Assembly (NCBI GenBank): GCA_028565635.1
Contig: JAOXYB010058945.1
Location: forward strand, 1 to 25,210
Direction: 5' to 3'
Source of the DNA: Phoronis ovalis
Lineage: Eukaryota; Phoronida; Phoronidae
Length of the DNA: 25,210 nucleotides
Position numbers and translations under genes: made by a program
In this document: piece by piece, positions 4,021 to 24,733 of the stretch
Layout: every line of letters starts with the position of its first letter
Position numbering within the stretch: position 1 is the first letter of the stretch
The notes under the pieces: generated by a model
Told to the model about the DNA's origin: nothing
The model's input: the letters and a program-made list of their open reading frames with translations, nothing else
Databases searched by the model: none

Positions 4021-4048
4021 ATGGGATTACACAACTGTTTAAGCAAAG
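4021..4048 (+). CDS. Gene A exon 1 (start of signal peptide)
   Basis: Encodes MGLHNCLSK plus the first base of a Gly codon, then a GTACAC donor. This gives the phase-1 junction that the acceptor at 4240 requires. It is longer than the 13-nt first exons of genes C and D and lacks their M-x-F-A pattern, so another upstream exon or a start at the in-frame ATG 4246 in exon 2 remains possible. Confidence 0.5.
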
Positions 4049-7000
4049 GTACACTTTCTGGTATAGATTATTTTGTTAAGAAATGACTAAATTTTGTTAT
4101 TACTATTTATATCTCTATAATATCTTTCATCTGTGAGCCTGACATGTAATACTAATGACTTGACTAAAGAGTTTATGTCAACTCTGAAATTACAAAATAT
4201 TACAGTATATAACAAATTTTCTATTTTGATATTTTTTTAGGTATCATGGCTGTTTTAGCCTGCATGTTTTTGGGAATGGCGAACATGATTGAAGCAAAAC
4301 CTTTTGGAGGGACGAGAAGCCTTCTGGAAGTGTCATCGCCACGTTGGTATACGCCATGTGCTGGAAGCAATCCTACCGGAGAGGTCATAGAGACGCCAGT
4401 AACAAGACCACTAAGAGATGCCTATTACCATATCGCGTTAAAATCCACAGAAATTAAGCATAAAATTGAAGAACTGAAAGAAAGATATGTAAGTAACATA
4501 TTTATTGTTAGAAAAATGTAATCAAAGTTATTTGTTTAAAGTTTCTTCCGATGTTATGTATTCCCCAGTATGATTCACGTTTACGAATACTAGATTTTAT
4601 GCATAGCTTGGATTTTCCCCCTAAAATACAGCATTGTAAAACAACTCGTTTTATCATGTTAATTTTTTAAGGCTTATTTATATAAATATTCAAACACGTG
4701 AACTGGGCTCTCATTAGACGTAACTGTGTCCAATAAGCAACAACAGAAACTGTTATTATGTCTACTTATGGATATAAGGAAAACTGTTTGTTTTGGTATC
4801 AATTAATTAATCCTTTTGTCTTTATAAATAACAAGTTACGATACAGTATACAGTTTCACGGTATCATATTTCATAACCACCTACGTACCTCATATAATTT
4901 CTCAAAACTGTTTGTTTTGGTATCAATTAATTAATCCTTCTGTCTTTATAAATAACAAGTTACGATACAGTATATAGTTTCACGGTATCATATTTCATAA
5001 CCACCTATGTATCTCATATTGTTTTTTCAATAACTATTTAATATGTACTGTGTATATATAAAGAATAAAGTGGACATTATACTCTCTTGTAATACATTTA
5101 ATAATCAAAGGCAGTCGAATTTAACTTCCGTTTTATTTAAGTTTTAAAGATTCGTAAGTTATCTTTACAATTCATCAGCTTACTAAATTCGAGGACATTA
5201 AATGGAAAATAAGAGGTCTCGTATCAACAATTAATGTAAACTCCTCTCCGGGGACAACCTTGACCGTAAACATTATAATGGCTTGATGCTCTTGCATTAA
5301 GTTTGTAAACCAAAAATTACGCCGTCTTTTATTAATTGTTTTAAATAAACATAGGGATAATCAAATTATTCTATTGTATTTGTAACATTGTACGCGTAAT
5401 TATTGATTTAAAGAATTTTTTCTGACCAACTTTTATTCACAACGTTCAAAAATTAATAGCTATCATAATAGTAAATCCGTCGTTTGATTAGTCATAGTGT
5501 CGTACGAAACATTTTCTTTCTCAAATTTAATAATTATTAGTTTTAATATATCTTTAATAATTGATGAGTCAATTTTACTGCTACACAGGGATTTCAAACA
5601 TACGTAAAAGGTGATCCCCAAGTTTCGGTTTATCCATGACACATACATACTTGCAATAGTTCTGAGGATCATATAAAAGAGTGACCCCATACTTTTCATT
5701 TATCAAATTGTATTTCTAAATTTAACTGATTATTAGTTTTAATATATATTAAATTAATAATGAGTCAATTTTACTGTTACCTATGGATTTTGAAATATAA
5801 AAGGTGTTCCCCAAGTTTCGGTTTATCAATAGCATGACACATGTACAAACTTTACTTGCAATGTCGATGGTGATATATTCAAAGGGTGATCCCAAAGTTT
5901 CTAATTATCAAATTCTAAATAAAAAATTATTGTATGTACAAATATATACGTTATTAATTGCCGGTATCAGAACTCGCTTATGTTTTATTTTTTATCATCT
6001 AGCTCGTATTGAATTGTATTTGACAATAAATATGAATTGCATGTGTATCAACGAAAATAACAGCTGGTGATAGGCACTAATGAAGGTTTAAAATAAATGA
6101 CAGCCCTAATTAAAATTAACATTTATTAATATTATATTATAATTAGTCATTTTCATTCTACTAACTTGTATGTCATACGAAATTTACTTGTTTTTGTTGA
6201 ACACGGCGAAGAGTACCTGGGATTTATCTCCCCCATGAAACTGACATCATAACTGGGCTTTCCTCATTTCTTAGAAATTGATCTATATTTGTTTAGTGCC
6301 CTAAATTATACATGTTATTGGAAATTAACAATGACCTACTTTAATTGCACCTACGCTTTTAAGCTTCCACAATGAATTATGCGTAGGCAATTTAATTTAT
6401 AATAGTATATTCATAAAGAAAAACAAAACAAAATATATCCTAGGTGCTAAAAATAAGACATGAGTTGTCGCAATTAATCCACACAGGTAAATCCAAGCTA
6501 TGTGTATCAAATCTAAACATCATATGATATATCGAGTGGTTAGTTTGATAGTATTTCTTCGATTTCTAGAGGAATGCTGATTGTTATTAGCTTATTTGCC
6601 GCTTGAAAATATAATTCTAGTACCTGCTTAGCTAATCTCACGATGTCTTAATGTACTCCTACAAGATTAAAAAAAAATGTAGCAAACTAGAGTAAGTTGT
6701 GGGTGTTGTATATACCCATTTGATTAACTGTATAATAGTCCTTACTTCTGTTCAGACCCCTTCAGACATACAGCCTAGAATACGGTGTATTTCTATACCT
6801 ATAAGCTTCCTGTTAAACTTGTATCTGTATTTAGCAATGCTGTTACAACATGCGTGTGTCAGACATGTCTTTCCTTATCTTTAATTAAAGCAACAATATT
6901 ATCTTCATCTGTATAATATTTATATACTACCTGTACTTATATACTGCCGAGCGGTCGTATTAAACCGTCTGAAAATTAAACGTCATTGGCTACCATGGAG

Positions 7001-8480
7001 GAAATCTTATGCTTCTCCTGTTACTTATAAAAAAAGATTGCTGTTTCCATGGTATAATAGTGTGCTAAATTATTTTCTACAATAGCGATTGCATGAAATT
7101 TATGACCTATTGGTAACTATATACGGAAAATATGGAATTTAGATGTGATTTAAATTATAATTCTGCTTTAAGTGTGTTTCATTATTATCATTTCTTTTGT
7201 ATATTTTATTGCTTTAGATTTTTTTTTATTGCAATAGGCTTACTTTATTTGCGTGGACATTGCACTGAGTGCATATATCTGTTGCTAGTTTTTCTTGAAT
7301 GTGTTTTCAGATTTAAAACCCCATGAACTTAATGATGGCGCCAACGTCAAGGAATTAGCACAATCTGATCCCATGTATATCTATATATTGCCATTCCTCC
7401 ATTCATGTATACTAATTTGACGCTTAGAAAGCTTAACCATCAGGTTGAAATTTGTTAAAATATGCAAAATTACAGAACACCGGAACAAATAATTAAAATA
7501 TTTTCAAGTGACTTTTACGGTTGTTACAGATTCAGCAACGTTTTGGGGATCCGCAGTTTGTGCAAATGTTGTCAACTTTCAAGATTGGCGGAGTTCCTGA
7601 CGTCGAGGTTACAGATGAAGCTCTGACCTTTGCCTTACAACAGGTGCGTTATCTTAATTGCGATAATCTTATTCATTTTATGACCATTATTCATTCTATA
7701 CTTTGCAAATTGTACGTTACATAAATATTTAACTATTAATAAAATATATAACTGATTAAACTTTATACTGCAATTTTCAGACTGATGAATTCTTGATCGA
7801 AGTGTACAATCACCTTGCCGCAATCGCAGTATTTGTGGATAAAATGAAGTTGGATGAACTTTCGTATGAAGACAATGGCGGATATAAAGATGATATTGCG
7901 GAAATTGAAAGCATGAATTATGAAGAACTATGCAATATGTTCAGTGTCACTGTCACTACAAAAGGTGTGTATATAATGAAACTAAACAGTAATGTAAAAG
8001 TCTTTACAGATCGCTAGACCATGAATCTGTTTATAGTTTCTGGGTAATATTTAACTTATTGGTTCGCATTACTGGCCTGTTTCACGAGTGTTATATAGTA
8101 ACAATATATAATTGAGTCTATTGATTAATATTAGAGATTTAAAATAGATTGTAAATACTTCTTTTGTACTCTTATCATTTTATTGAAAAGGACATGTAGA
8201 ACGTTGTTCTGTTGTTTGACTGCAAAAAAAAATTCAGTATGGATCCTTGGTGTATATAAATGTATTCGATTCGATTACTAAAACTAATTTTTTTAATACA
8301 GGTTTGACTCTCCCGGAAACTGTTACTACAGATATCATCCCTGCAGATTTTCGTGACCTAGCAAGCCAAACGAACCGATGGATTCGAGATTACATCATTC
8401 TTCGAGATTATAAGAAACTGATGAACTATGTTCATGCCACATTCCAGCACTTGATGGACAACACACCTGAATCTCCGTAA
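4021..8480 (+). CDS. Gene A: secreted four-helix (class I cytokine-like) protein, five exons, 250 aa
   Basis: Coding exons 4021-4048, 4241-4488, 7530-7643, 7781-7964 and 8302-8480 join in frame (intron phases 1,0,0,1) with GT/AG borders. The signal peptide ends near Ala28 (IEA|KPF). Pre-helix motif W45-Y-T-P-C49-A-G-S; predicted helix A about 65-92; an A-B loop in exon 3 (93-130); helix B about 131-155 and helix C about 165-186, carrying L180-C181, in exon 4; helix D about 217-243 (RWIRDYIILRDYKKLMNYV) in exon 5. C49 and C181 are the only cysteines of the predicted mature chain, so they could form one disulphide. No N-glycosylation sequon is seen. The start has an A at -3 and G at +4. Known: IL-6/G-CSF-group cytokines have five exons with a phase-1 intron in the signal peptide. 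Inferred: an extracellular helical ligand. Any other small secreted helical protein is the alternative. Exons 4-5 are confirmed by fragment B; exon 1 is the least certain. Confidence 0.75.
4241..4488 (+). CDS. Gene A exon 2 (signal peptide core, PCAGS motif, helix A)
   Basis: The acceptor follows a T-rich tract ending in TTTTTTTAG, and the donor is GTAAGT after a Tyr codon (phase 0). It encodes the hydrophobic core MAVLACMFLGMANMIEA, the WYTPCAGS motif and a charged amphipathic stretch ending KIEELKERY, read as helix A. Confidence 0.85.
4780..5022. repeat. Tandem duplication, two copies of about 124 bp
   Basis: Copy 1 is 4780-4903 and copy 2 4904 to about 5022. Both start AAAACTGTTTGTTTTGGTAT and run through the same order of words to ACCACCTA[CT]GTA. 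They differ at only a few positions, so the duplication is recent. Confidence 0.9.
5526..5920. repeat. Diverged tandem duplication, period about 195 bp
   Basis: TGAGTCAATTTTACTG recurs at 5566 and 5761, followed in both by GATTT, AAAAGGTG[AT]TCCCCAAGTTTC, GGTTTATC, ATGACACAT and ACTTGCAAT in the same order. More diverged than the 124-bp pair, so older. Confidence 0.8.
7530..7643 (+). CDS. Gene A exon 3 (A-B loop)
   Basis: Thirty-eight codons, phase 0 on both sides, with a TTGTTACAG acceptor and GTGCGT donor. Starts IQQRFGDPQF and ends ALTFALQQ. It has no duplicate in fragment B and is unlike gene D exon 3 in sequence, as expected for a loop between helices. Confidence 0.8.
7781..7964 (+). 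CDS. Gene A exon 4 (helices B and C)
   Basis: Acceptor CAATTTTCAG; the last base is the first G of a Gly codon before GTGTGT (phase 1). Contains KLDELSYEDNGG and YEELCNMF, both kept in fragment B (about 43 of 58 comparable residues identical), which supports real coding sequence. Confidence 0.9.
8302..8480 (+). CDS. Gene A exon 5 (helix D and stop)
   Basis: Acceptor TTTTTTTAATACAG; begins with GT completing Gly192, then LTLPETVTTDIIPAD, helix D and a TAA stop at 8478-8480. RWIRDYIILRDY is identical in fragment B. Confidence 0.9.
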
Positions 8481-8905: not shown

Positions 8906-9238
8906 ATTATAAACATTTGAATTTGTAAATTTAAGCTAGGCAGTAGCTTTTTTTCATTAATGTCATTTTTGATTATAATTATAATTTTAAGTAATTTAAA
9001 CTAAAATAAAAAAAAAAATTTGTAAAAATTTACTAGACATTCACTGAGACAAGCTTATATTTTTGAAATATTAAGTGCGATTTGTTTAATGAGTAACCCA
9101 ACGTTTTTTTGTTGGTAAGGATATTATATGTTTTAAACATTGTCAATGTTCGTAATAGCTTTGCCTGTATTTTTATTCTGTGACGTATAGATTGTATGTA
9201 TTTCAAAACTTTATAAAGTAACGTTTAGAAAAGCTTGG

Positions 9239-9412
9239 GGACTGTTGTTGGAAGTATCGTAAGTTACAGTTTCGTAAATATTTACGATTTTCGTAAATAG
9301 ACACTTTCAGTACACCGTTTGTAATTTTTTTTTCTGGCAACGCATTTTGCTACCGTAAGTCCTGATCAATTATTACGGAATTGTAAATTTACATCGTTTC
9401 CAACAACGGGCC
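9239..9412. mobile_element. MITE-like element, 174 bp, with 5-bp target-site duplication
   Basis: Terminal inverted repeats GGactGTTGTTGGAA and, on the other strand, GGcccGTTGTTGGAA, with weaker similarity running inward about 10 bp. CTTGG flanks it on both sides (9234-9238 and 9413-9417). The homologous place downstream of B (about 23064-23068, CCTGG) has one target copy and no insert. No open reading frame, so non-autonomous. Superfamily not assigned. Confidence 0.65.
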
Positions 9413-9775
9413 CTTGGTGGCTTGATAAGTATTGTCAAAATCGCCGCAATCGTATTACGTCTTACGGTATTGTTTTATGCGTGTCCCAAATTAAGTGCTA
9501 TAGAGATTTAGGAGGTAAACAATTAATGCAAACAAAAAAAATGATCTCACTTATTTTATCGATATTTCGTCTTATGTTTTGTAATCTGTCTTATTATCTT
9601 GTACTTGCCTATGGTTGGGTGTTTATTTGTATATGTTTGTTATTTTAATTATTTTGTTCCTAATAAACGTTTCTATTACTAGTGTATATAGAAATTGTAT
9701 CAGTTGTTTCCCACTCCTTTACATATCTATATTTCACAATAATATAGTTCCACTTGCGGTTAACGCTTAAATAAA

Positions 9776-12581
9776 AATCAGCTTAATAAGTACAGTTTAG
9801 TATCATTTTTAACAGTGATAGAAACCACAACGAAGTAGGTAGTAGCATCCATAGTGTTTTCACCTGCAACCTGAATGTAGCAAAAATGTTGGGACTATTT
9901 TAACCGAAGTTCTTAAAATTGTTCCTAATCATTGAAAGCATTGTTATCGATAATAAATACGTACACAATTTGAGAATTACCTCAATAATGCGAAATTCGG
10001 GATGGTGGGCTGAACTATTTACTTAGAAAACTGGTACAGGTACAGTTGCAAAATTACTTGCAGTGTTCAGATAATTAACAAAACATATATAGATGCTACT
10101 GCAACCTTAACTCTATGCAGCTTCTTTTCATGTTTTAAATCCAAAATTCTGGTTTTATTTAATAAATTTACCCACTTTGACTCTATCAACCATCTCAGTC
10201 TAAAATAATAAAAAAAGTTATCACTGAATCCAAAACATGCTAAAGTTTATGGAATGGTCCGAATGCATTAGATGTATATTTTTATGAGAAATAAAAGGCT
10301 TTATTATCAAAAATATCGTATCCATATTATGCAGCTGTTATATATCAGAGTTGGTTCTTTGTCATTTTAAAATTTTAATAACCTAGCTTCGTTATTCTTA
10401 AGCTAAAACTTGCATACTGCTTTGAATGCTTGACGTTTATTTCAAGACATATTTTTGGACTAAAACGCAAGACACACATCTAGAAACAACATCACTGTCT
10501 CGCACAAATTTGTTACCAGGAATTACATTGTCCTAATCAGCCAACATATTAAATTAAATACAACATTGGATTCAAGGAGTTACTCAACAGTTTGTGCGTA
10601 TACCTCTCGTAAATATTCTTAGCCACATGTAGCATTCTCAGTAATTTGCATAATTTATTTTTTATTTATTAAGTATTGCCATAACAAAAACAGTGTGCAT
10701 AAGATACACCTATTTATAATGATATGGGAGCATCCAAATTGTTTACCCTCTTTTTGAGCCTCGTTTTCATGAAGGACTAAGTTGCACAGTAGAAACAAGT
10801 AAAACTACAATCTGCATGCCCCATACCAAAATATTGGCCAAGTTCCGCAGAGTACCTCTAACTAGATCACAAAACATAAAATTACTTTCTCGGACCCTGT
10901 CCCATAATAAGATCATAATGCATTTTCCCATCATCTTCTTTAATCTCATAAATCATTATAAAAAAATCCAAAACGTAGCCGGAACCTATTAATTATATAC
11001 CCTATTGCCGGTTAATTTTTCAAACTGGCATGATCGACCAACACATTTTTTGATTTGAAGACTATCTCCGGAGAAAACAACAACTCATAAAAAATATTTA
11101 TGAATACTTTTGTAAAATACAACGTGTCATCTTTTTTAAAAAACAATACTCTTACAAATCTAGGTAATTAAACACACCCAGACGGAAAAAACAAACTGCG
11201 AAAGAGACTGTCCAGTGTGCAGAACAGTAACGAGGTGACGAACTACAAATAGTTTTACATACATGTTAGTTTCTTCAATTCTTATTGACCAATAGGCTAG
11301 TCAGCGAAAACTGGAAGTAAACAATATAAAGCATTTACGACCGAATCACATAGATCAAAAGTAATTTCTGAACAATAGGTCTTAAATTATTTCAAATCGG
11401 AAGTTGTTCAAGGAAGCGAAACTGTCAATACACTTTACTGGAACGTCCAGTAAACCTCGATCTTTATGCAACCGCAGAGAGTGACGGTGATCGAAATGAT
11501 TTTTATTCATACTATCCAATGATAATCCATATATTATCACGAGTAACGAAGAAATATAGCTTACACTAATTGGATAATTAAAAACAGCGTTTTTATATAA
11601 CGTTACCAATGAACAATGAGTTAATGACATGCTGTGAACTAGGAAAATACAAGCAATAAAATTGGGAAATAAAAAAAGGGAAACAGGCAATTTGTCAATA
11701 TTCATGCACGGCAAAAAATGAAATTTAATGTTAAAACAGCGAAATATGAGTTAAATCCAAAGCTAGCATTATTTCGGCGGGAGCATTGTTTTCGTTCTTT
11801 TCAAACACCTTCACGCAGAGAGTGGGCATTTTCATTTGCCTATCCCGCTTCCCTTGTAACAGACACGTAATGACTAAATGTATGAATTTACGAATTAATA
11901 AAACATATAGCTTCATAATGCACTTCTATGACAGTTCTAATTCTAACTCTGCACACCCCTTGCTAAGATTTGTCTTATGGAGTATATTTGTAATAAAAAA
12001 TTACGCTTATTTCAACTAAAAAACGGAATTTCCTCACTAAATGTTTCAGTGTAGGCATGAACATTGGCCAGAGGTTATCAATTCATCTTACAACTTGTTT
12101 ATTATCTATGATACACACGCTTTACGACTTCTTATCCAACACTATCTACTATATGAGATTTCGTGACTAAGATGAAAGTGTAATAAACGTGAGATTTAAA
12201 CCATAAAAAAATCTAGAAGACGATACGAAGAAAAAAAAACGGGCCTCAAAGATTCGTAGGTTCTAAATTTAAATACGTAACTGGAAAATGCTATTAAATA
12301 TGGGAAAGTAGTTTCGTTAAACCTGTTATTCATGACCACAAACTAGTACTGTGAACTTTGAACTGGGAAAAGTATATTAAGTGTAGTAAGCAATTTCTAA
12401 GAATTCGGTGGCTTTTCCGGTTATTCCCCTCTCACACTGTCACTGAATATTTTAAGTATCGATGTATTTTTCGGGGCATTTTTGATATTTCATTAGTTGC
12501 TATGACGAAACAGGAAAACAAAAATGACCATTAGAACAAAAATAAATAGGGAAATATAATTTCGATTCCATACTGTAAGTA
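9776..12581. other. Intergenic DNA between genes A and C
   Basis: No supported gene or RNA. Open stretches such as 11382-11714 (-) lack splice context, a recognisable domain or a paralogue in the window. A short perfect hairpin (TTTACTGGA, ACG, TCCAGTAAA) lies at 11434-11454. The right end must hold the upstream regulatory region of gene C. Confidence 0.5.
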
Positions 12582-12589
12582 TATAAATA
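12582..12589 (+). promoter_or_regulatory. TATA box of gene C
   Basis: TATAAATA lies 71 bp upstream of the exon 1 ATG, predicting initiation near 12612 and a 5' UTR of about 50 nt. Confidence 0.45.
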
Positions 12590-12659
12590 CAATAAGTAGA
12601 ACAAAGGGTTATTATGCCTTTCTGATTTTTTTGTGATAGCACAATATAATAAATACAAG

Positions 12660-12672
12660 ATGCTGTTTGCTG
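12660..12672 (+). CDS. Gene C exon 1
   Basis: ATG CTG TTT GCT G then the donor GTGAGT. Encodes MLFA plus one base, matching MIFA plus one base in gene D. The joined base makes GTA (Val5). A at -3 supports the start. Confidence 0.75.
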
Positions 12673-15600
12673 GTGAGTATGATAATTAATTATACGCTAA
12701 CTTATTATATTCCTTTCACTAGGAATTTCGTTATTGTTTGAAGCAGAATTCATAATTTTAAAACATTTTTTAAAATTATGAAAGCATAAAGTTGTAGTTT
12801 AGAAATAATACTAATAACCATGTATTGTGTATAATATTTTTGACAAATGTTTTCAACAACAGAAAGAGGAAGGTAATTTATAAAAGTAAATCCAAAACGT
12901 TAGTGTGTTTTAAGAATGCTTTTTAGGATAAGTGTAGTTAAAATGCTGTGAATATTAAAAAGATATACTAAAAACATGTTTTCATATGAAGATAATATAT
13001 CCATGAACATCTGGAATTATCCCAAATAAGCATAGTTTAAGCAGTTACGGGGAAAAAGTTGTAAGGTTAGAAACATTCAGTATATCAACTAATTGCCAGT
13101 TCCCCGCTTCCACCAGAGGTCGCCCTTAATGATGAAGATGCCTCAGTGATGTCGGATGCTTTATTTGTGTCCCGGTTTGCGTCTAAACTTTTGTTGCCCA
13201 TATACCTAACTAAATTACAAGTAGATTGAACATATTATAATTTCTATATCATAGCTTATAAAAATGTACAGTTTAGGCGGAATGTTTTTGTACTTCTTTC
13301 CCCAAAAGCGTTTTGCGACATTGCATTTTTTTGGAGAATGCGTAGGACAATCGAATCCGTTCTTACTGTACAATTTTTCTCTACTGCCCTTTAACCTGGG
13401 ATTGAAACATCTGACATGCACTGCAATTTTTTACTGCTAACAGGGGAATTTATGAATTGATGAAATAATGTATAATTTCGACCTTATGCATGATTACAGA
13501 CTCGTTAAAATACAAGAAACGTCCATTATTAACGGTAAACTTTATATTTTGAATTTTTTAGTACTCTTAGCCGCCATTTTGGTTTTGTCATCTACCTCAT
13601 TTGCGACCTCAGCAGAAGTTATTCTGAATAACACCCACACTGGTACCCTGTACGGATTTTTTGAATACCTGGAAGAGAGCCCGTATCCTTCCATTTGTAA
13701 TGCAAGTAATACTCTGCCTGGAATTTTACCAGGCATATATGCAATAACAATTCACACATATAGGGCATTGGCTGATCAAGCTGGAAACTGTAGTGCAAAA
13801 GACCGAGATTTATCTTTAGAAATAGTGAGTATTTTACCACAAATATTTGTAAAAAAATATATAATTTGTATTCCGAGTTGAGGTTAAAAGTTATTAACAA
13901 TGATAAAATTTAACATATGATTATTAGTAATGTCGATGCAAACTTGCTGAAGGAATTGCGATGCAAGAAGAAGTAGCTAAGTTTATACATTTTACTCTTG
14001 TACTTTATACATAATTTGAAATCTTAAAGACTATTGCGTTTACAAACGAAATCCCCAATTCTAGAAGGCGCACTCTATTCTCGCTGGTCTATTATTTACT
14101 CTGAACAAATGATAAATTGTAAATGGATCCGGAAATTTCCAACTAGTCTAATTCCTAGTAATTCCATGAAAAAATCTTTTTGTCGTTGAATGCACATGCA
14201 CAATTTGAGACACAAATTAAGCATAAAAAGCTTCATATATTAAAAAAGTATATATTAGTTGTAACTAACCTTACAAATTGAACAGGACGTCCACACAAAA
14301 AATAACATAATGGTAGATACAAGGAACAATCGTCATATACCTATCTTGCTACTACACAGAATGCATACCAAAAATTACACAACTATCATATAAGAACTTA
14401 GTGATTAAATCTTACTTTGTCTTTTTGTGTGACATAGATTTGCAAAATTCATATTTCTAAGAAAAGCACCAAACCTCGTTCTGGGCTCTTTAACTTACGT
14501 AGTAACAAACCACAGGGGGCCTGACCCTTGACATTAAATTATTTTACTTTTGTACTTTTATAATATTAATAAACCAAATATAAATGTATTTCCTACCACC
14601 AAAGTAGTTTCTTATTATTACAATAATAAATAAGTGCTAGAATGTATTTTTAATAAGAGTTAAATGTATTTTTTTTGTACATGATACTAATGTAAGCCCA
14701 GGATTGTAGTTATTCAATATATTTCCGATTTCATAAATTACGTGATGGTGTAGTACTGTTTTTTTTGTAGGGTGCGAATGTCGCAGCAGAAGCATTGGGT
14801 AACTGTAGTAAACTGGAGTTATATCTTAATATTTCTTTTTCGTCCAAAGTAAGTAATAAAACAAAAGTAAAATGATGTTCTAATTGTTTAAACAAACTCT
14901 AGACCAAACCTTGGAACAGCATGTCTCCCTCCACACCACACTGTATTCTTGGAATTATGATAAGTTATTGTGGGTGGAGGAACGTGCAATTCGTGCATGC
15001 ATTGTACACATGGCAACAATTAATTGCTGAATTATGTCGATCTTTGTCTTTGCCCTAGTGGGATATTTGTCTAGTGTATTCTTTAGTTTATCTCGTAGAT
15101 GCTTCAATGCCTTAGAAATAAAAATCTTCAACTGAAGTGGTTGTGAAAAATTGCTGAAAATCTGTATTTTTACCATATTATCGTCTGTACTTTAGAGTGC
15201 TGCATTCTTTTCTAGCCTGTTTTGAATTAGAACACTCTATCATTTATTTTTTCCAAGATTTATTAATAGAATTTCACTTTTACCTTGGTCACTTAAAGCA
15301 ATTTCGACAATCTTGTAATAGACTAGCAATGCATTTGACTTCTGCCCTCGTAGCCAGTGTCCATTACAATTCCTACATATTCCCCAAAACTGCTTTAAAT
15401 TGAAACATGTTGAAATGTTCAGTCATTCTCAGCATTTTTAATTCATCCTCTAATATCCGTTTAACATATTTTGCTTTTATTTTTACAGTTTGAAATATTT
15501 CTCAGCCAAGTACAAGGCTATGTATCAAAGATGCAGCCATTTTTACTGCGGGCACGGGACATTTACCGTGACGGTGTACGGCCAAGTCAACAACCGAACT

Positions 15601-15905
15601 ATCCAGCTCAAGATCCTAACTATGATTTGGAATACAAAACTAATAATGTAATTGCTGATCAGTACAACATATTATGCTCTATAAATCTTCTACTCACCGC
15701 TAAAGGGCATCATTCTTTGTATTCGTTAGATTATGTCATTGATACGTTCCTCAACAAACTGGACACAGAAGTAACGTCACCTACAGAAAAAACTGGATTT
15801 GTTTTACAAATAAATAAATGCCTTTTTGATATTTTAAAAAAACGTACAGAAAAAGAAGTTATAGCACAGGAAGTTTATTCTTTCTTGCAATTGCTTAAGC
15901 GCTAG
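12660..15905 (+). CDS. Gene C: divergent secreted helical cytokine-like protein, four exons, 256 aa
   Basis: Exons 12660-12672, 13562-13824, 14771-14848 and 15489-15905 join in frame with intron phases 1,0,0. Signal peptide MLFAVLLAAILVLSS..., cleavage near Ala22 (TSA|EV). Five N-glycosylation sequons (Asn27, 51, 80, 103, 112), unlike gene A. The last exon (119-256) has three predicted helices: EIFLSQVQGYVSKMQPFLLR, one around YNILCSINLLL with L180-C181, and a C-terminal pair ending EVYSFLQLLKR; a Pro/Asn-rich loop (about 147-163) separates the first two. C50 in SICNAS is placed like the PCAGS cysteine of A and D. No intron lies between the last two helices, unlike gene A. Sequence is far from A/B and D/E; kinship rests on gene structure, cysteine placement and location. 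Possible function: extracellular helical ligand (inference). Confidence 0.75.
13562..13824 (+). CDS. Gene C exon 2 (signal peptide, first helix)
   Basis: Acceptor GAATTTTTTAG, donor GTGAGT after an Ile codon (phase 0). Hydrophobic LLAAILVLSS, sequons NNT, NAS and NCS, and a short helix around YAITIHTYRALAD. With exon 1 it totals 92 codons, the same as gene A exons 1-2. Confidence 0.85.
14771..14848 (+). CDS. Gene C exon 3 (26 codons)
   Basis: Acceptor TTTTTTTTGTAG, donor GTAAGT, phase 0 both sides. Encodes AAEALGNCSKLELYLNIS within it, which resembles the end of exon 2 (ADQAGNCSAKDRDLSLEI), as if it were a duplicated exon end. Confidence 0.75.
15489..15905 (+). CDS. Gene C exon 4 (helices B-D, stop)
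   Basis: Acceptor TTTTATTTTTACAG at 15488; 138 codons and TAG at 15903-15905. The longest open exon of the window, with no disruption. Confidence 0.9.
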   Translation, partial: FEIFLSQVQGYVSKMQPFLLRARDIYRDGVRPSQQPNYPAQDPNYDLEYKTNNVIADQYNILCSINLLLTAKGHHSLYSLDYVIDTFLNKLDTEVTSPTEKTGFVLQINKCLFDILKKRTEKEVIAQEVYSFLQLLKR

Positions 15906-16332
15906 ATGTGTTACCTGGATTTCAAGTTATATCAAGAGACACCGCGAATTAGACAGGTGCATCAACTTGTTAGTGTCAAAACGTAAGATTTCCAAGCCAT
16001 TGCAGTGATAATTGGTATATGATATTGCTATTTTTGAAAACTACTCCATTTAATTTTTGTATTTTTTTCTTCTAAATTGGGTTTAATTTTTATAACATAT
16101 ATTATTTATAAACTGTTAAAGAGCATTTACCTTTTATAGTTTATTTACTTTGCTAACCACTTGAAGTTCAGCATGCATTTATTTTGCTACGTGCATTTTA
16201 AGATAAAGTTGTAATATTATTATTTTTTGTGTCACACCTTTTCCTGCTATTAAAACTGTTAGTTGACCTAAATTATGTATTTTCAAAATAAGTATATAAC
16301 AATTGTTAAGCAGTTTGATTCATTTTAATAAA
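15906..16332 (+). other. 3' UTR of gene C
   Basis: AATAAA at 16327-16332 ends a UTR of about 430 nt. It holds several ATTTA words and one TTATTTATA nonamer at 16102-16110, the AU-rich instability type found in many cytokine mRNAs. In DNA this AT-rich such words are expected by chance, so weight is low. Confidence 0.5.
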
Positions 16333-16640
16333 TGCATTTGATTTTTGTACTTTTTGCTGTTGAACTTTCCTTTCCTAGCATCCTAGAAAGAAATATATAA
16401 ATATCATTTACTTTGTGGACATCCGTTTTACACTAAGCACATATTTAATACCACACCTTAATTTTCTGAACTCTAGTTATCTTGATATATAACACTGAAG
16501 GGATATATTATAATTTAATTTTATATATGGATGTATATACAGTATTTCGTAATAACAAAGAAAAGGTCAGGTACATCCACTTCCGTGACAGAAAATAAAT
16601 TATTTTGCATATGCAGTTAGCGAGATTCGGATTACGTATG

Positions 16641-16706
16641 GGTAGCGGGTTAAACCTTTTGATGGATATATCTTGACAACCTGCATCCGATTTCAAAACA
16701 AATATT
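16641..16706. repeat. Dispersed repeat, copy 1
   Basis: Shares ATATCTTGACAACC, CATCCGATT and a GGGTTAAA..TTTGATGG context with 23761-23825, same orientation. Not part of the gene A/B segmental duplication. Family not identified. Confidence 0.6.
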
Positions 16707-16738
16707 CCCAATATGCACAAATGACTAAAATTACTCTA

Positions 16739-16781
16739 GTTATCTTACCGGTTCCGATCTGGTTATCTTACCGGTTCCGAT
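16739..16781. repeat. Direct repeat, two copies, period 23 bp
   Basis: GTTATCTTACCGGTTCCGAT occurs exactly at 16739-16758 and 16762-16781. Confidence 0.9.
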
Positions 16782-18750
16782 TAAGCAACCCGTGTACAGC
16801 AGTAATCTCGGGACTTGGACTCAAAAACGGGCGAGGAACTGCTTATTATTAACCTCTTTATTAGACCACGCTTAAACAATTTTTTCCTTATATGCATCCA
16901 CGGGGATCCATTAATAATTATAACTTTATTGCCGATCCATTCATTATGACTGCTCAGGATCCATTTTACATTTCTCATGAACCGACACGTGATGTGATTT
17001 AGCTAATCTGATTGCGTGAGGTATAGATGTCCTATAGCAAAATAACCTAAGCCTCAGTATAGATTTATAAATATTTATAAACATTTCTTGCCTATAGTAA
17101 GTACCGAGGCACAACATAAAACATTGTATCGTGGTCTGTCTTCGTCAGATTGCAGACGATGCATCTCATTTACTTTCAAACCTATAGTCTTCCAGAGGGC
17201 AGTTTGTTTTATGTTAGTCAAAAATATTTCCCTTTGTTGTGTCAGAATCCCGGAAATGGATTTACAGTTCATCAACAATGATAAACATCAAATAAAATAA
17301 ATAGAGGATCATTGTGTAAACAAGTAATACCACCTTCATTATTACAACCAGTCATATTTGATTACACTTGTGATGCAAATGAGGAGCATGCCCGATAGAT
17401 ATGACAACCAATAGGGTGACTCGTTTCGTATGTGACTAACTAATAACATTTAGGCAACAATGTTTTCAGTGGAATATTTCCTTTTTGTTCTTTTTTCGAT
17501 TCTGCCCAGGCCATAATGATTACTGATATTTAAAAGTATGTTTTTTTAGCTGAAACATTAAAATGACCGAACTATTTTTGATTTAATGAAACCATAGTTT
17601 CATGTTTTGATTGTGATTTGCAAAGTGCCCACCAGATGGTTTCTAGTCGTTTAATGACCTCTCCATTGAGAATTATTTTAATTGGCCATACATTGCTCGC
17701 ATGAAGAATAAGAAATCCGTCGTGGATATTAGACTTCTACAAAGGCGGGAAATATTTTGTTACCACTACAAATGGAAGGGGAATTCACCAGCGCTTATGT
17801 GTCATTGTGAAATGAATGCAGTAAACTTAGGTAATAAATGATTATCCATGCATCCAGGTAGATAACCTGTACATTTACGAAACATTTTTACCTGAATTTC
17901 AAATAATATGAGATGTATAAGGCACCATGTTACCGGGCCTTAATTGTGCATCTGCTATGTACATTAAAACCAGATACACACTTCTTTAGCTTGAACATAA
18001 TATTTGTACCAAACAGCATGCCCAAATGTTTGTACTTTTCTTTAAAGAAACAATTCTGTATTGCAGATTATCACAATTTTATATTTACACACGAGTACCC
18101 TGCATGCACTTCTAATTCTTGACGCTTGTAGAAGTTTGAGTGCAATATATGATTATCTATATATATCCCAGAGGCAAAACTTGAACATATGCAGCAGTAC
18201 AGTATATCCATTGACCCCTTCACGAAAAGTAAAAGTTCATGTATTTTCATTTTTATATTATATTTTGTTATTATAAAGTGAACTTGATAATCAGTATAAT
18301 AATGAGAAAGACATAAACATGTTGCCATCAAGTTTGCAGTTTACAATATGTTAAACTGAAAAAAATGTTATGCTTTAAACACAATGAAACAATGCCAAAA
18401 CTCTTACATACAGTACTGGCCACATTACTCTTAACAAAAGAAAAAACAATAAAAATAATAGTATTTGAAAAATAAATACCCATTTTTCTAAACTAAACAG
18501 TAAGAAATAAAATTCGTTTGTTGTACAGAATTGTCAATGCCTGCCGATTTGATAATAACAAATATTTCTATAATCCTATATTCTTACGATATGTTAATTG
18601 TGATTTTACAATAAAAACATATAATCACGTAAACAAATTAAAATTTGAAAAAAAAAAATTAATTGAAACTGTTATGAAAGACATTAAGAATAAAACTAAT
18701 ATACATACAAAATAATTTAATATTAAAAATAAAAGTAAGATTAAAAAAGA

Positions 18751-18873: not shown

Positions 18874-19206
18874 TTAATTATTACAATTCATATTCCCTAC
18901 ATATGTTTCTAGATCCTCCAAAAAATCTATAAAATCTGTTATAAGATTAACAATACACACTTCGTGCTCAATTTTTGTAGGTCTACACTGCGACGGTCTT
19001 TGTACCATATCAGATTCTGTTGAGTCCAGCATGTCTCTTGTTCCTAAAGCAAAATTTAGCGGACAAAGCAGTCGAGAGCTGAAAGGCACCTCCAAATAGT
19101 CTTTGATTTGTCTATTCATTTGTGAGCGTCGACAGATAGAGGCGTCATCTAAACGTTTCCCAAATTCTCGTAATATCTCGTAGTATTTTAACAATTTTGA
19201 ATTATC
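18874..19206 (-). CDS. Gene D exon 4 (helices B-D, stop)
   Basis: Acceptor TTCTTTTTTTAG; 110 codons plus TAA. SKL.KYYEIL, FGK.LDD, SRLLCPL.FAL, LITDF.DFL.DLET and the C-terminal NM.CNN are all kept in gene E, so it is coding. Confidence 0.92.
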   Translation of the reverse strand, partial: DNSKLLKYYEILREFGKRLDDASICRRSQMNRQIKDYLEVPFSSRLLCPLNFALGTRDMLDSTESDMVQRPSQCRPTKIEHEVCIVNLITDFIDFLEDLETYVGNMNCNN

Positions 19207-20531
19207 CTAAAAAAAGAAATACATCGTTTGTTTCGTTTAAAAGAAAGGAGCAAATTGTAACACAAACAATACTTATATGTATGAAAAAAAATAAATAACA
19301 ATAATACTGTAATAACATAAGTTAATAATAATAACATGCATATACAGTTTTGTGACTAGTGCTATCACAGTCAATCGTGATCGATGAATTATGATTTGTT
19401 ACACACCTAAACGTGTTTGGCAAATCTTGATATTTCTCCCACTAAATACAATAGTTACTGAGCTATTATTATTATTAATATGATACTATTATTTTACTCA
19501 TTTTTTACGGATATCTGACATAGTGGTCAATCCTAGATTTTTTAAATAAAAAATAAAAATGCTGCTCTCATTCTGCATGTCCAAGCAAATTTTTAACATT
19601 TAGTACCTAGTATTTAGGGATGACGTTATCTCGTTTTGAAAACGCGCAACTTTTAGCTCATTCATGTGAATCTCTACATTTGTACAATGCTTAAAAACGA
19701 ATTGATCAATCCTACCGTGTCAAGGACATCTCGCCAAGTGGTATCAAATTGGCTTTTCCAATCAAAATTGTTAGGACAATTCCATTCATATCTCTGTACT
19801 CTGGTTATAAAATCATTCGTCTGTAAATAGAAAGAGAGAAAGCCTAGTAGAATAAAGTTAAAGTATCGCTACTAAGGCAGCTATGGGCTATTTTTTCAAA
19901 AAGAAAATGTGAATGAAAGTAATATATATGCCATAAAAACTTTTTTATTCCTTTTCTTATTTTATAAATATAAATTAGTTTATGTTATTTTATATGAAAA
20001 AGGTCATTATAATTAAACGCGGTTGTGTTTTTACAGAGTTGTCAATCCCAAATATCGCACCGTGGAACTTACCACATTATTTCGCAGACTACGCGTACTT
20101 TCTACAATGTTATTTCCCAGATAAGCTAAGCATACAGGCTTAAGAGATGTCAACAGGATTTCCAAGTTTGGGCGCCGGCCTTGTGTACGAATGCTTCCCG
20201 CGCATGGCGAAATCCAATTAACATTAGCTCTTGCGGAAGACAAGTCTATGCAAATAGCTAAAATGGCAACAGCTACAGCCAGTTTTCCTAGAAATATAAT
20301 GTTAAGATTAAATGATTAATTAATTAATAGTTACCACTGAGGTTCAAACAACAAACTAATCAGAAAAATAAAAAAAAATTAAATTAGTAAAATTGCATGT
20401 ATATTAAACGATATCTTTGGTGAAATTTGAAATTACGAAAAATAAATTTGAAATTTTAGGTTTACGGTATACGGTGTCAATTAATTTTTCACAAATTAAA
20501 ATGCAAGCATATTTTTACCTGCGAATATCAT
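18874..20531 (-). CDS. Gene D: secreted cysteine-rich four-helix (cytokine-like) protein, four exons, 221 aa
   Basis: Exons, in gene order, 20531-20519, 20287-20073, 19820-19716 and 19206-18874, intron phases 1,0,0, all GT/AG. Signal peptide MIFAGKLAVAVAILAICID..., cleavage near Ala23-Ala25. W29-I-S-P-C33-A-G-S matches W-Y-T-P-C-A-G-S of gene A with the same spacing. Helix A is about 46-76; exon 3 (77-111) is a Trp-rich loop; exon 4 gives helix B (KLLKYYEILREFGKRLDD), helix C with L158-C159 (SSRLLCPLNFALG) and helix D (NLITDFIDFLEDLETYVGNM). Several more cysteines than gene A, so extra disulphides are likely. One sequon (N-V-T) is created across the exon 2-3 junction. Paralogue of E. Inferred role: secreted helical signalling protein; receptor unknown. 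Confidence 0.78.
19716..19820 (-). CDS. Gene D exon 3 (A-B loop)
   Basis: Acceptor TTTCTATTTACAG, donor GTAGGA, 35 codons, phase 0 both sides. Trp/Asn-rich: YEWNCPNNFDWK. Confidence 0.75.
20073..20287 (-). CDS. Gene D exon 2 (signal peptide, PCAGS motif, helix A)
   Basis: Acceptor TATTTCTAG, donor GTAAGT, phase 1 in and phase 0 out. KLAVAVAILAICI is the signal core; WISPCAGS follows. Confidence 0.85.
20519..20531 (-). CDS. Gene D exon 1
   Basis: ATG ATA TTC GCA G then GTAAAA. Encodes MIFA plus one base, closely parallel to MLFA in gene C. A at -3. Confidence 0.75.
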
Positions 20532-20644
20532 GCTGTTAATTTTATATCAATTCTGCACGCAATAAAAAATGTTTTTTCTTTGGTCAAATTTTGTATGTTT
20601 CAACCGTGATCTCTTAAACACTTTAACAAATTTTGATCCTGTCG

Positions 20645-20655
20645 CCCTTTTTATA
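20645..20655 (-). promoter_or_regulatory. TATA box of gene D
   Basis: On the minus strand TATAAAAAGGG lies about 115 bp upstream of ATG 20531, predicting a 5' UTR of about 90 nt. Almost the same core as the CATAAAAAGG upstream of gene A. Further up (about 20839-20848) the minus strand reads GGGAATTTTT, which fits the looser insect Rel consensus GGGRNYYYYY. Confidence 0.5.
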
Positions 20656-20659
20656 CCTT

Positions 20660-21699
20660 AATTTTGCCATTTTCCGATATTTACTTAATTTTCTTCCTTT
20701 TTGGTGCAATATTTTTATATAAAGTACTGGTCACGTCACGTCAAAAGTAAAATTATTTCATCCAATCAAATTTCTAAGCAAAATTAACTGGCAAAGTTAA
20801 TTACATTCGTCACCAAATACATTGTATAGTATACAATAAAAATTCCCTTCTCCGGTTCCTTGTTATTGTAGATCGTAAGGTACAATAGTTAAAATAAATA
20901 TTTAAGTAGTAAATGCTCGCTCAATTTTACATGTTATGTTTATATAGAAACAAAAAATTTTAACTCACGACCGGAACAAAAGTAAAATGCTTACTAACAA
21001 CCTTTCTAACACGTAGTGTATATGCGTGTATCGAAACGGACCTTAAATGTGTAACTTGCGTGAACAGGCCTACCTAACCAGCGTAGACTCGAACCGTCAA
21101 TCCGCATTCGGACCTGTTTCCTACCATTCGAACCCATTTTTCGGGTTTCGCACCAAAATTCCTGCTACTCGAACCTTCATTTCCGGTTCGAGTAGCAGGA
21201 GAATGGGTTCGAATGGTAGGAAACAGGTCCGCGAATGCAGATTGACGGTTCGAGTCTACGCTGGTTAGGTAGGCCTGGTGAAGGGGATAATTTAAATTCT
21301 CAGATGATGACCAAAAAAGAAAGTTTACATAAATTCTATAGGGTATCTCATTATTTATAAAAATCCATTGTCTGAACATTCTGAAACCTAAAGCAGCACA
21401 TAAACCTTACTTAAATACAATTGAAGTTATTATTTGTACATGTTTTAAACAATACGTGTTTTGTTTGCCACTGAACAATTAAAATGTACACTATTATTGT
21501 ATCGCTGTTTGGTTTGACCAAGTAGCTATATAAAAAGCTATACAAAAATGTGACCTAATCCAAATATTTCATGTTTTCTCCATTTTTTATGTCTTAACAG
21601 ACCACAATGCTCGCTGCTCACGAAAGCCCCCCTATAGGCCTCTACACGCAGATGCTTTAATTGCGTGAAGTTTGTACTGTAATCAATATTATTTTTCAG
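20660..21699. other. Divergent intergenic region between gene D and fragment B
   Basis: Carries the upstream region of gene D and the foldback palindrome. No sequence resembling gene A exons 1-3 was found here, so B has no visible 5' part. Confidence 0.6.
21065..21277. mobile_element. Foldback palindrome, 213 bp
   Basis: From CAGGCCTACCTAACCAGCG to its complement CGCTGGTTAGGTAGGCCTG the arms are inverted copies with few mismatches; central loop 21176-21184. The left arm has about 22 extra bases (around 21139-21160) where the right arm has 2. Much richer in G+C and CG dinucleotides than its surroundings. [AG]TTCGA[AG] boxes repeat along the arms. No transposase; a non-autonomous foldback/MITE-type element is the best reading. 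Confidence 0.75.
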
Positions 21700-22178
21700 A
21701 CTGATGTGTTTCTTGGTCGAAGTGTATAATTATATTTCCGCATTCGCAGCATTTGTGGATAAAATAAAGTTGGATGAACTTTCTTATGAAGACAATGGCG
21801 GATTTAAAGATGCCATCCAAGAAATCGAAAACATGCATTACGAACAACTATGCAATGTCTTCAGTCACACTGTCACAACAAAAGGTGTGTATAATAAACT
21901 ATTTGCCTCCAAAACAAAAACTGTCGATGTAAATAATTCAGATGCGAATAGAACACAAGGTTGTCGGATCTGATTACTGTTTCTACTGAATGCTTAATGT
22001 ATATATTTCAGGTTTAACTATCCCGGAAACTGTTACTGCGGATATCATCCCGGCAGATGTTCGTAACATGGAAGGTACAGATCGGTGGATTCGAGATTAC
22101 ATCATTCTTCGAGATTATACCAAACTAATGGCCTACGTTCATGCTACATTCGAACATCTGCTGATAAACACGCCATAA
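21700..22178 (+). pseudogene. Fragment B: 5'-truncated duplicate of gene A exons 4-5
   Basis: Exons 21700-21884 and 22012-22178 keep the acceptor, the GTGTGT donor, the phase-1 junction and the stop of gene A. Of about 58 comparable exon-4 residues about 43 are identical, and helix D is nearly unchanged; one codon is missing in exon 5 (in frame). Counterparts of exons 1-3 and the signal peptide are absent upstream. The first codons carry one extra base relative to gene A (ACTGATGTGTTTC against ACTGATGAATTC), so a phase-0 upstream exon would not read through. An ATG at 21704 opens the frame, but any product would lack signal peptide and helix A. Probably a decaying duplicate; a remote or novel 5' exon is possible. 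Confidence 0.8.
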
Positions 22179-22620
22179 TATTCCTAAACGGCTTTTTGGA
22201 GGGGACTTTTTGAGCAAGTGCAGTCTTCCGTAAATTTTATTTGCGGATTTTTTCTTTAAACTCGACCTTTTAGCATGGGTCCTACGTATTTGCAAAATTC
22301 TGAGACAACAGCCTTTCTGTAAAATTTTTCGCTTGCTGTCAAGTTAAGTAATACATTTCATTAACAATTAATAAAAGAGAAGTTCTAAACTGCGCGCGAG
22401 AATTTTACCAGAATGGCTTTATTAAACGTACAGAGTTTTTGTGAATTTCCTGTGTAGTAACGTATCGTTACGCAGACACTTTATATTTATTACAAAACGA
22501 GTGGTTTGTATTCCGGCAATTTTGTATACCTATTCTAAAACTGTAAAACACACTAAACATTAGAATTACTTTAATTACTGAAAAAGAAAAATTAAAAATT
22601 TAATGCATTGTATGTGCAAT

Positions 22621-22701
22621 CAATGAGACATTTTTAAATGTCTCATTGTTTTTATAGTACATTTTTTAAAAGTTTCAATTAAAACTGAAACTTTTAAAAA
22701 A
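22621..22701 (+). repeat. Two hairpins in the 3' flank of fragment B
   Basis: A perfect 13-bp stem (CAATGAGACATTT, 22621-22633, with 22636-22648, loop TT) is followed by a perfect 15-bp stem (22662-22676 with 22687-22701, loop 10). They sit where the gene A copy has its own, different inverted repeat. Confidence 0.8.
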
Positions 22702-23455
22702 GGTGCTATAAAAACGATTTTATCATAGCATTCAATTATTATTAAAGTTTATTTTCCATATAGACAGTTAGATTTTTTTAAAATTAAAATTAAATAAAAT
22801 AATTAATACTAGAATCTTTTCTTGACGTATTCACTGAGACAAGCTTATGTTTATAAAATATCAAATAATTGTGAATTATTTAGTGCAGTTTGTTTAATAA
22901 ATAACGCATAAATGTTTCTTTTGTTGGTCAAGATATTGAGTGTTTTTAAACAGTAGCCTACGTTTGTTATAACACTATGTGTATTTTTTCTGCCACTATC
23001 TCACTGCCTAAATCTTATGAAATTTAAAAATTCAATTTAAAAATTCAAAAGTAGCGTTTAGAACCTGGTATCTAAGTAGGTATTGTTGGTACTGTTATAA
23101 TGCAATCATATTATGTTATACAGTAAAGTTTCACGTGAACCTCGAATTATTAAATGTTAGAGGTAGTAAGTTAAGAAAACGTGCAATTAAAAATGATCTC
23201 ATTTTTAAAAAAATCGGTTAGCCATTGCTCATTTCAAATATTTATTATGTTATTAAATTACTTCTTGTAAAACTTTTGTTTGGTAATTCGTTATCTTTAT
23301 ACTGGTTAAGTTTTTTATTTGTATATATTTGTTATTATTTAAATTATTTTGTTCCTAATAAATTTTTTATTGCTGTTGTATATAAAAATTGTGTTCATTT
23401 ATTACTCTATCCCGTGAGTGCCTTTCACACAACTCTTACTGCTTGCGGTTAAATT

Positions 23456-24260
23456 TTACAAAAAATGCTTCTCAATGCACCTTGATATCTTTTCAGTATA
23501 GTATGTTGTTAGGCCAGAACAAAAGAAACTTTGTTTAACGGGTGCGACCGCCTCAAATTTAGGGTGTTTATTTTTATTTTTTTTAAAATAAACCTTGTTT
23601 AACAGACGCGACAGTTTAAAAAAAGGAATTATTTAAAAAAAATGGTTATTGTTTAATATTTTTTCTTCTTTTAACACTAAAAAAAAATCCCGACTGACTT
23701 AGTTGTTAAGGGCTTTTGCCCGTTAAGCAGCTTATATTTTTGGCGTGATCTTACCCGAGTAAGGGGTAAAACATTTGCATGGCTGGGCATATCTTGACAA
23801 CCGTTCATCCGATTAAAAAAACGAAAATACACAGTGTACGTGTTTAGTTTAGATTAAGACATAACATAAATAACAATTAGTTACGATCAGTTACTGATAT
23901 GGACTATTTCTGAAAGTTAGTCTTTGTACCTAAAATTTGATAAAACGCAAAATTGTTGGCGTTTTTTCTCATATTAATTTAGAAATAGCAAAAAGGTGAT
24001 GAAAACGATCACTGAAACTAGAGTAAAGTACAAATATATATTAAAGTATACTTTTTACATAAGAAACAACGTCAAAACATCAATGCACTGCCCAAACTAC
24101 TTAAAAGAAAAAGGCGAATTATTTATTATTATTATTATTAAAATAATAATATCTAAAAACAAAATATAATTTTTATCTATGTTTTATAACGAAAAATAGC
24201 ATTTTTATATAAATGTCCTTATTTGTGTAATTACAATAAAAAAACTCATTTAACGCAAAA
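23456..24260. other. Intergenic DNA between fragment B and gene E
   Basis: No gene seen. Holds a short diverged direct repeat ([CT]TTGTTTAAC[AG]G[GA][TC]GCGAC at about 23530 and 23592), the second dispersed-repeat copy, and an ATT microsatellite at 24121-24150. Confidence 0.5.
23761..23825. repeat. Dispersed repeat, copy 2
   Basis: ATATCTTGACAACC..TCATCCGATT, preceded by GGGGTAAAACATTTGCATGG, pairs with 16641-16706. Confidence 0.6.
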
Positions 24261-24355
24261 AGCACCTCTTCGCAAGAAATAAATAAAGTTAGGCTTTTTT
24301 TTTGGCTTCACAGTTTTATCCAGTAATGCTGTTTCAACTTAAATAGTATAGCAAC

Positions 24356-24733
24356 TTAATTGTTACAGTCCATATTTCTTATAAAGGTTTCTAGATCTTT
24401 CAAAAAGTCCAGGAAATCTGTTATAAGATAAAATTTACACATTTCATGGTGAGCATTTGTAGACATACACGGCACCGGTCTTCGTACAATACTGATTGCT
24501 CTTGAATCCAACTCATCGTTGCTATTAGCTTCTAAACGGGTTTTTAAGGCAAAACGTAGCGGGCATAACAGTCGAGAATTGAAATGTGTCTCCAAATAGT
24601 GTTTGATTTTTTCATTGATTCGATTTGACTTGAGTTCTTCTAGACAGGTATCAGCCTCGTTTACAATGACGTCATCTAAATGCTTCCCAAATTTTAGTAA
24701 TATTTCGTAGTATTTTGACAATTTTGAATTCTC
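24356..24733 (-). CDS. Gene E: last exon of a gene D paralogue, 125 codons (partial)
   Basis: Minus strand, acceptor TTTATTTCAG, first codons ENSKLSKYYEILLKFGKHLDD, stop TAA at 24358-24356. Helix B, helix C (NSRLLCPLRFALK) and helix D (LITDFLDFLKDLETFIRNM) match gene D exon 4; four cysteines align (LLC, [QP]C, E[VM]C, CNN) and a fifth is near (TCLEE against ICRR). It is 15 residues longer than D, through insertions after helix B and before helix D. No disabling change. Gene D has a 509-bp intron before this exon, so exon 3 and the rest should lie beyond the window; none is seen in 24734-25210. Confidence 0.85.
   Translation of the reverse strand, partial: ENSKLSKYYEILLKFGKHLDDVIVNEADTCLEELKSNRINEKIKHYLETHFNSRLLCPLRFALKTRLEANSNDELDSRAISIVRRPVPCMSTNAHHEMCKFYLITDFLDFLKDLETFIRNMDCNN

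Follow-up and report, generated by a model that had tools for sequence, protein, structure and literature searches.

The stretch of DNA analysed here, referred to throughout as the window, is a single contig of 25,210 bases (C3614; 31% guanine plus cytosine) carrying a cluster of genes, designated A to E, that appear to encode secreted proteins of cytokine-like design. Genome searches cover the assembly to which it belongs, 77.4 Mb in 4,805 contigs, which is partial: a CCT-chaperonin search found matches on 6 contigs, several of them incomplete. Splice modelling within the window gave three full genes: gene A (forward strand, 4021-8480), with five exons coding for 250 amino acids and intron phases 1,0,0,1; gene C (forward strand, 12660-15905), with four exons, 256 amino acids and phases 1,0,0; and gene D (reverse strand, 20531-18874), with four exons, phases 1,0,0 and either 220 or 221 amino acids depending on the choice of exon-2 donor. 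The exon borders of gene A are GT-AG, its first donor (GTACAC) being weak. With the last exon of gene E and the partial copy B, these models uphold the inventory of three full genes, one partial gene and one fragment given in a preliminary description of this DNA, as do the results below its claims of a shared gene structure, of a W-x-[ST]-P-C-A-G-S motif in A and D, of a Leu-Cys common to the third helix, and of local duplications.

Gene layout and cysteine placement

The first coding exons of A, C and D are short (13-28 nucleotides) and lie within the signal peptide, which a phase-1 intron interrupts after 9 1/3 codons in A and after 4 1/3 codons in C and D. In all three genes the second intron, in phase 0, follows directly on putative helix A, and the third, also in phase 0, lies where putative helix B begins or close to that point, the helix borders having been set by eye. 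The N-termini are hydrophobic (best 12-residue mean Kyte-Doolittle values of 2.5 for A and 3.3 for both C and D), and by this hydropathy criterion A, C and D are predicted to be secreted-type proteins with a signal peptide.

A 1-0-0 start to the series of intron phases is common to IL-6, G-CSF, GH, EPO and LIF. In IL-6, intron 2 lies after helix A, intron 3 lies at or near the start of helix B, and exon 3 measures 114 nucleotides, a length equal to that of exon 3 of gene A; class II and short-chain class I cytokine genes, by contrast, have phase-0 introns and are not known to have a phase-1 intron in the signal peptide. Measured against this yardstick (no published statement of cytokine-gene intron phases was among the literature matches listed), the layout of A, C and D, with a phase-1 intron in the signal peptide and phase-0 introns around helices A and B, is that of the long-chain class I pattern.

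Immediately after the signal peptide, A reads WYTPCAGS and D reads WISPCAGS, and the local A-D alignment across this motif had a p value of 0.024 by shuffling. The Leu-Cys of the putative third helix occurs as EELCNMF in A, NILCSIN in C and RLLCPL in both D and E. Mature A has only two cysteines, at residue 21 in the N-terminal PCAGS and at residue 153 in the helix-C Leu-Cys; C and D have cysteines at the same two places (28/159 and 8/134, respectively), each together with additional ones. The corresponding positions are 6/127 in OSM and 12 and 18 / 131 and 134 in LIF, and in vertebrate OSM and LIF disulphide bonds join the N-terminus to helix C.

Receptor sequences in the same assembly

A genome search with the Pfam IL6Ra-bind profile returned one match, below threshold, on contig C3891 (21.9 bits, E = 0.0133), and none in any of 14 control genomes. 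Between positions 4235 and 10115 of that contig lie four receptor exons with GT-AG borders and end phases of 1, 2, 1 and 0. Once spliced, the resultant fragment of 249 amino acids scored 28.4 bits against IL6Ra-bind (cut-off 24.3), with Lep_receptor_Ig N-terminal to it at 27.7 bits, just below the cut-off of 28.8; for the immunoglobulin (Ig) exon alone, Lep_receptor_Ig was the best Pfam match, at 28.6 bits. The best match of the fragment in PDB was gp130 (IL-6 receptor subunit beta; E = 4.4e-11), running from the Ig domain into the second domain of the cytokine-receptor homology module (CHD). Among the 60 rows listed, gp130 filled the top 11, and lower matches included prolactin receptor, IL-13 receptors, CRLF1 and G-CSF receptor. 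On these matches the sequence is best read as a predicted fragment of a gp130-type class I receptor, in which an N-terminal Ig domain precedes the CHD. No WSXWS was found in six frames of C3891, the contig stopping within the domain expected to carry it.

Upstream of the receptor exons (locus L028, 2145-3100), a second and weaker Ig/CHD-like copy was seen by eye in open frames, within which 2286-2411 matched at E = 0.33; this copy is perhaps a decayed tandem receptor.

Copies, constraint and neighbouring features

Duplication within the window is evident from the last exons of D and E, which are 60% identical in protein, and from the repeat blocks of A and B, which are 79-85% identical in DNA. 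The in-frame exon-4 homology of B begins one base out of step with the start of the A exon, and B therefore looks like a fragment.

Copies or relatives of the window genes were found on three other contigs (C3492, C1473 and C393). The first of these carries a near-allelic copy of much of window 9220-18148, gene C included, in which the splice sites are kept and the introns and compared flanks are 94-96% identical. Its exon lengths depart from those of the window in three cases, by 12, 9 and 21 nucleotides, all of them multiples of three, whereas many of the intron gaps are not. This copy was considered as an extra gene and rejected as such, the identity of introns and flanks indicating that it is probably an allele. 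At the start of C1473 (19-191) lies an A-type last exon (E = 8.4e-10; 48% identical to A), and at 686-1051 of C393 a D-type last exon (E = 7.4e-20; 48% identical to D), which is open for 121 amino acids and retains SRLLCPL and FAL in helix C.

The ratio of non-synonymous to synonymous substitution (dN/dS), taken as a raw value, was below one in all six comparisons (0.22-0.83): 0.256 for C against its C3492 copy, 0.50 for the last exons of D and E, 0.37 and 0.22 for exons 4 and 5 of A against B, and 0.72 and 0.83, both weak, for A and B against the C1473 exon. Taken with the exon differences in threes and the relatives elsewhere, these ratios suggest that the family reaches beyond the window and, fast-diverging as it appears to be, yet evolves as protein.

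Two distinct sites in the window match GGGRNWYYCC, a kappaB consensus, and both lie 205-711 bp upstream of the start codon of gene A. Four matches were counted on both strands against 0.44 expected, a number reached in one of 100 shuffles, and these sites, singled out post hoc, suggest that gene A may be NF-kappaB inducible. In each of the four assumed 3' untranslated regions the pentamer ATTTA was no commoner than in shuffles; TATA boxes were present at chance level in the window (about one per 400 nucleotides expected) and are uninformative; and TTCCNGGAA had no occurrence in the window.

Table 1. Positions of modelled exons, partial copies and NF-kappaB-like sites in the window
Feature	Position	Strand	Basis
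NF-kappaB-like consensus site GGGATTTCCC, upstream of A	3310..3319		motif scan
Palindromic NF-kappaB-like site GGGAATTCCC, upstream of A	3807..3816		motif scan
Gene A exon 1 (split signal peptide, phase 1)	4021..4048	+	splice model
Gene A exon 2 (signal peptide, WYTPCAGS, putative helix A)	4241..4488	+	splice model
Gene A exon 3 (putative A-B loop, 114 nucleotides, phase 0/0)	7530..7643	+	splice model
Gene A exon 4 (putative helices B and C with Leu-Cys)	7781..7964	+	splice model
Gene A exon 5 (putative C-D loop and helix D, stop)	8302..8480	+	splice model; homologous exon on C1473 and in B
Gene C exon 1 (13 nucleotides, phase 1)	12660..12672	+	splice model; counterpart exon on C3492
Gene C exon 2 (signal peptide, putative helix A)	13562..13824	+	splice model
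Gene C exon 3	14771..14848	+	splice model
Gene C exon 4 (putative helices B-D, stop)	15489..15905	+	splice model
Gene D exon 4 (putative helices B-D with RLLCPL, stop)	18874..19206	-	splice model and D/E comparison
Gene D exon 3 (putative A-B loop)	19716..19820	-	splice model
Gene D exon 2 (signal peptide, WISPCAGS, putative helix A)	20073..20287 (20076 as the end when the first GT serves as donor)	-	splice model
Gene D exon 1 (13 nucleotides, phase 1)	20519..20531	-	splice model
B, partial copy of A exons 4 and 5	~21710..22177	+	exon homology and repeat blocks
E, last exon of a D paralogue, remainder past the contig end	24356..24733	-	splice model and D/E comparison

Intron 2 of gene A contains, at 4780-5024, two tandem copies of about 121 nucleotides that are 95% identical. 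Between D and B, at 21065-21277, lies an inverted repeat with 46-nucleotide arms, 98% complementary, around a 121-nucleotide spacer, which looks like a small foldback element. A search of the whole window with Rfam gave no match, and nor did a Pfam search of seven further open frames within it, exon 4 of gene C among them.

The same assembly includes a mitochondrial contig of 15.7 kb (C1114), the COX1 of which has in-frame TGA. Read with the invertebrate mitochondrial code, one strand carries rrnL-nad1-nad6-cob-nad4L-nad4-nad5 and the other cox3-atp6-nad3-nad2-cox1-cox2, the gene names having been assigned from open frames by eye except for COX1 and the large rRNA. This order is presumably close to the ancestral mollusc/lophotrochozoan arrangement, except that atp6 stands in an unusual place beside cox3, and on this basis the source is probably a mollusc or a close relative.

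Interpretation and known systems

We regard it as quite probable that A, C and D are duplicated and divergent lophotrochozoan class I (long-chain, IL-6/LIF-like) helical cytokines that would signal via a gp130-like receptor, a reading better supported than by sequence alone because of the gene layout and the receptor. The helical cytokine locus proposed in the preliminary description is favoured to this extent by secreted-type, multi-copy and divergent proteins, by a class I-like layout, by a gp130-type receptor and, as to an invertebrate source, by the invertebrate-code mitochondrial contig with its lophotrochozoan-like gene order, whereas the resemblance of A, C and D in sequence to IL-6, LIF or OSM is no more than suggestive.

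In the top-scoring local alignment of A with human IL-6, helix D of the one coincides with helix D of the other, as the correct helix order requires (p ~0.02), and that of D with LIF set helices B-C on B-C, likewise in order and including the helix-C Cys (p = 0.14); C gave no signal with IL-6, LIF or OSM (p = 0.09-0.50), and nor did D with OSM (p = 0.23). As a yardstick, the human pairs themselves gave p values of 0.65 for IL6-LIF, 0.35 for IL6-OSM and 0.003 for LIF-OSM, and none of the three human proteins retrieves another from PDB sequences at E<=10. Since IL-6, LIF and OSM mostly miss each other, sequence neither proves nor disproves the kinship of A, C and D with them.

A number of results weigh against the cytokine reading. 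Alignment of A with LIF (p = 0.99) and OSM (p = 0.37) gave no signal, and a six-way MAFFT alignment of A, C, D, IL-6, LIF and OSM left the shared motif and the cysteines out of register. A match of D with IL-6 by alignment (p = 0.011) was not counted, the last helix of D being paired, out of order, with helix B of IL-6; a profile of the three D-type last exons behaved in the same way, reaching 0.02 with IL-6 with its last helix on helix B, and with LIF/OSM its score was matched by shuffled columns (0.44 of 150 shuffles). Pfam gave nothing significant, with no match for A, C or D and three below the cut-off for E, and the NCBIfam library, which is prokaryote-oriented, gave nothing significant for A, C and D. 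Among PDB sequences A had no match, the D/E last exons had one chance-level row and exon 4 of C two, and at E<=10 no homologue was found among the candidates for A (0 of 371), D (0 of 114) or C (0 of 805) in a protein set whose invertebrate share is uncertain. The IL-6 profile search put forward in the preliminary description as a check returned nothing, the Pfam IL6 profile having no match on the genome and being silent in the control genomes too.

Structural indications on the same side concern the helices. The preliminary description had coupled signal peptides with amphipathic helices; the hydrophobic N-termini sustain the former, but amphipathicity was weak, the helical moment exceeding that of shuffles (p<0.05) in 2 of the 12 helices delimited by eye. 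A structural model of D exon 4, built from its alignment with E (two sequences), was all helical, with helices at 2-21, 28-38, 47-61 and 78-105. It had a predicted local distance difference test (pLDDT) value of 44.4 and a predicted template modelling (pTM) score of 0.29, and covers three of the four helices of the expected fold, helix A being absent; it could accommodate helices B, C and D, with a long loop between the last two, and carries no topology evidence.

Further counter-indications attach to the receptor. In PDB the Ig exon of C3891 alone found CRTAM best (E = 4.9e-4), with gp130 at 0.11, and the EpoR_lig-bind model of Pfam had no match on the genome, a result that is uninformative given the partial assembly. 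Corroboration from a class I receptor and JAK/STAT had been envisaged in the preliminary description: the gp130-type exons provide the first, but neither WSXWS, for which the contig ends too early, nor STAT was found, STAT_bind and STAT_alpha having no match on the genome, where the assembly is partial and STAT_bind was silent in the controls too. The receptor evidence is independent of the ligand argument; ligand and receptor are linked solely by their co-occurrence in one assembly. According to PMC1963337, a gp130/Domeless-type receptor is to be expected in protostomes regardless.

The principal rival explanation holds that A, C and D are lineage-specific secreted helical proteins with some other job, be it antimicrobial, reproductive, structural or secretory, and that their cytokine-like phases arose by coincidence. 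Such proteins would agree with searches that yield no homologue and no confident fold and with the weak amphipathicity, and by our estimate phases of 1-0-0 are in themselves not unusual. We nonetheless judge this explanation unlikely: three genes are alike in phases, in a split signal peptide and in cysteines at cytokine-like places, a gp130-type receptor is encoded in the same genome, and true members of the IL-6 family, as the human pairs indicate, evade detection by alignment and PDB search too. That the genes instead encode class II (interferon/IL-10-like) or short-chain helical cytokines seems distinctly improbable; helical cytokines are alike in size and low in sequence identity, but the first intron of A, C and D is in phase 1 against the phase 0 of class II and short-chain genes, and the receptor found is a gp130-type class I one (class II receptors were not searched for). 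In favour of a class II identity, PMC9756803 describes an oyster interferon-like protein as structurally class II-like. Finally, it is scarcely credible that decaying copies or misjoined open frames have been mistaken for working genes, as the shifted exon-4 start of B, the truncation of E and the two higher dN/dS values for the C1473 exon might suggest, when C and its C3492 copy differ in threes within exons, keep their splice sites and have a low dN/dS, and when the D/E and A/B ratios are likewise below one.

On the preferred reading, that of helical cytokines acting through a gp130-like receptor, the following mechanism may be proposed. Each protein opens with a signal peptide split by an intron; the mature chain would fold as an up-up-down-down four-helix bundle, pinned by a disulphide between the N-terminal Cys and the helix-C Cys. 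One face of the cytokine would grip the CHD of a receptor, and a second face would bind the N-terminal Ig domain of a partner receptor, as the second face of gp130 ligands does. Receptor pairing would then activate JAK-STAT, and the duplicated ligands might tune different cells or challenges, induction of gene A by NF-kappaB being possible. The window genes could in that event be the missing ligands of the gp130-type receptor in such animals.

Published accounts of such ligands and receptors are cited here by PMC number. PMC13203501 (May 2026) treats IL-6 family cytokines as vertebrate-only, traces IL6R to Mollusca and counts gp130 itself as vertebrate-only; in its account molluscs have the receptor, JAK and STAT without a canonical ligand, and its survey (BLAST, E<=1e-5, identity >=30%) found 0 invertebrate IL-6 family ligands. 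PMC8226699 puts gp130 first in molluscs in its text and in lampreys in a figure legend, and cites Upd3 and a sea-star IL-6-like molecule. The origin of type-I helical cytokines is called undetermined in PMC9010856 (a 2022 review); the accessible portion of PMC9756803, a 2022 review of soluble mediators in molluscs and annelids, lists no class I ligand; PMC3296744 states that invertebrates have JAK-STAT components; and CRLF3 is treated in both PMC8063046 and PMC12409108, the former calling its endogenous ligand unidentified. No report of a lophotrochozoan IL-6-type ligand was among the literature matches listed, most subscription journals and preprints lying outside the coverage of the search, so that an earlier description is possible.

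We lean towards the view that A, C and D are genuine class I cytokines of a protostome and act as gp130-engaging ligands. If so, the ligand-gp130-JAK-STAT axis would predate the protostome-deuterostome split, the ligands would not be a vertebrate gain, and lophotrochozoans would possess a diversified network of IL-6-like cytokines, driven in part by NF-kappaB. The presence of candidate ligands and receptor in one genome opens the ligand question to binding or signalling assay, and the combination of 1-0-0 phases, a short first exon, an N-terminal Cys and a helix-C Leu-Cys offers a search handle independent of overall similarity.

Among known systems, vertebrate IL-6, LIF and OSM resemble the window proteins in being secreted-type, in a mature length of about 200-230 amino acids, in a split signal peptide and in phases 1-0-0, in the N-terminal and helix-C cysteines seen in OSM and LIF, and in the gp130-type receptor found in the genome. 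They differ in that there is no significant sequence similarity; further, the fourth intron of A is in phase 1 against phase 0 in IL-6, and C and D have no fourth intron. Drosophila Upd1-3 and Domeless, compared like the next two systems by description only, are alike in offering protostome ligands of a gp130-like receptor (PMC8226699, PMC13203501), and unlike in that the C3891 fragment reaches gp130 itself. A shrimp C-type lectin is said in PMC13203501 to activate Domeless, an alternative kind of IL6R-type ligand that may apply to molluscs; it is a lectin, whereas a free helical cytokine is proposed here. The amphioxus GH-like protein (GHl) is a divergent type-I helical cytokine outside vertebrates (208 amino acids; PMC9010856), as is proposed for the window proteins, but chordate and GH-like, in contrast to a protostome cluster with IL-6/LIF-like features. 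Lastly, the mollusc 'IL6R'-JAK-STAT module, as set out in PMC13203501, shares with this genome an IL6R/gp130-type receptor and is presented there without a ligand, for which the window cluster provides a candidate set.

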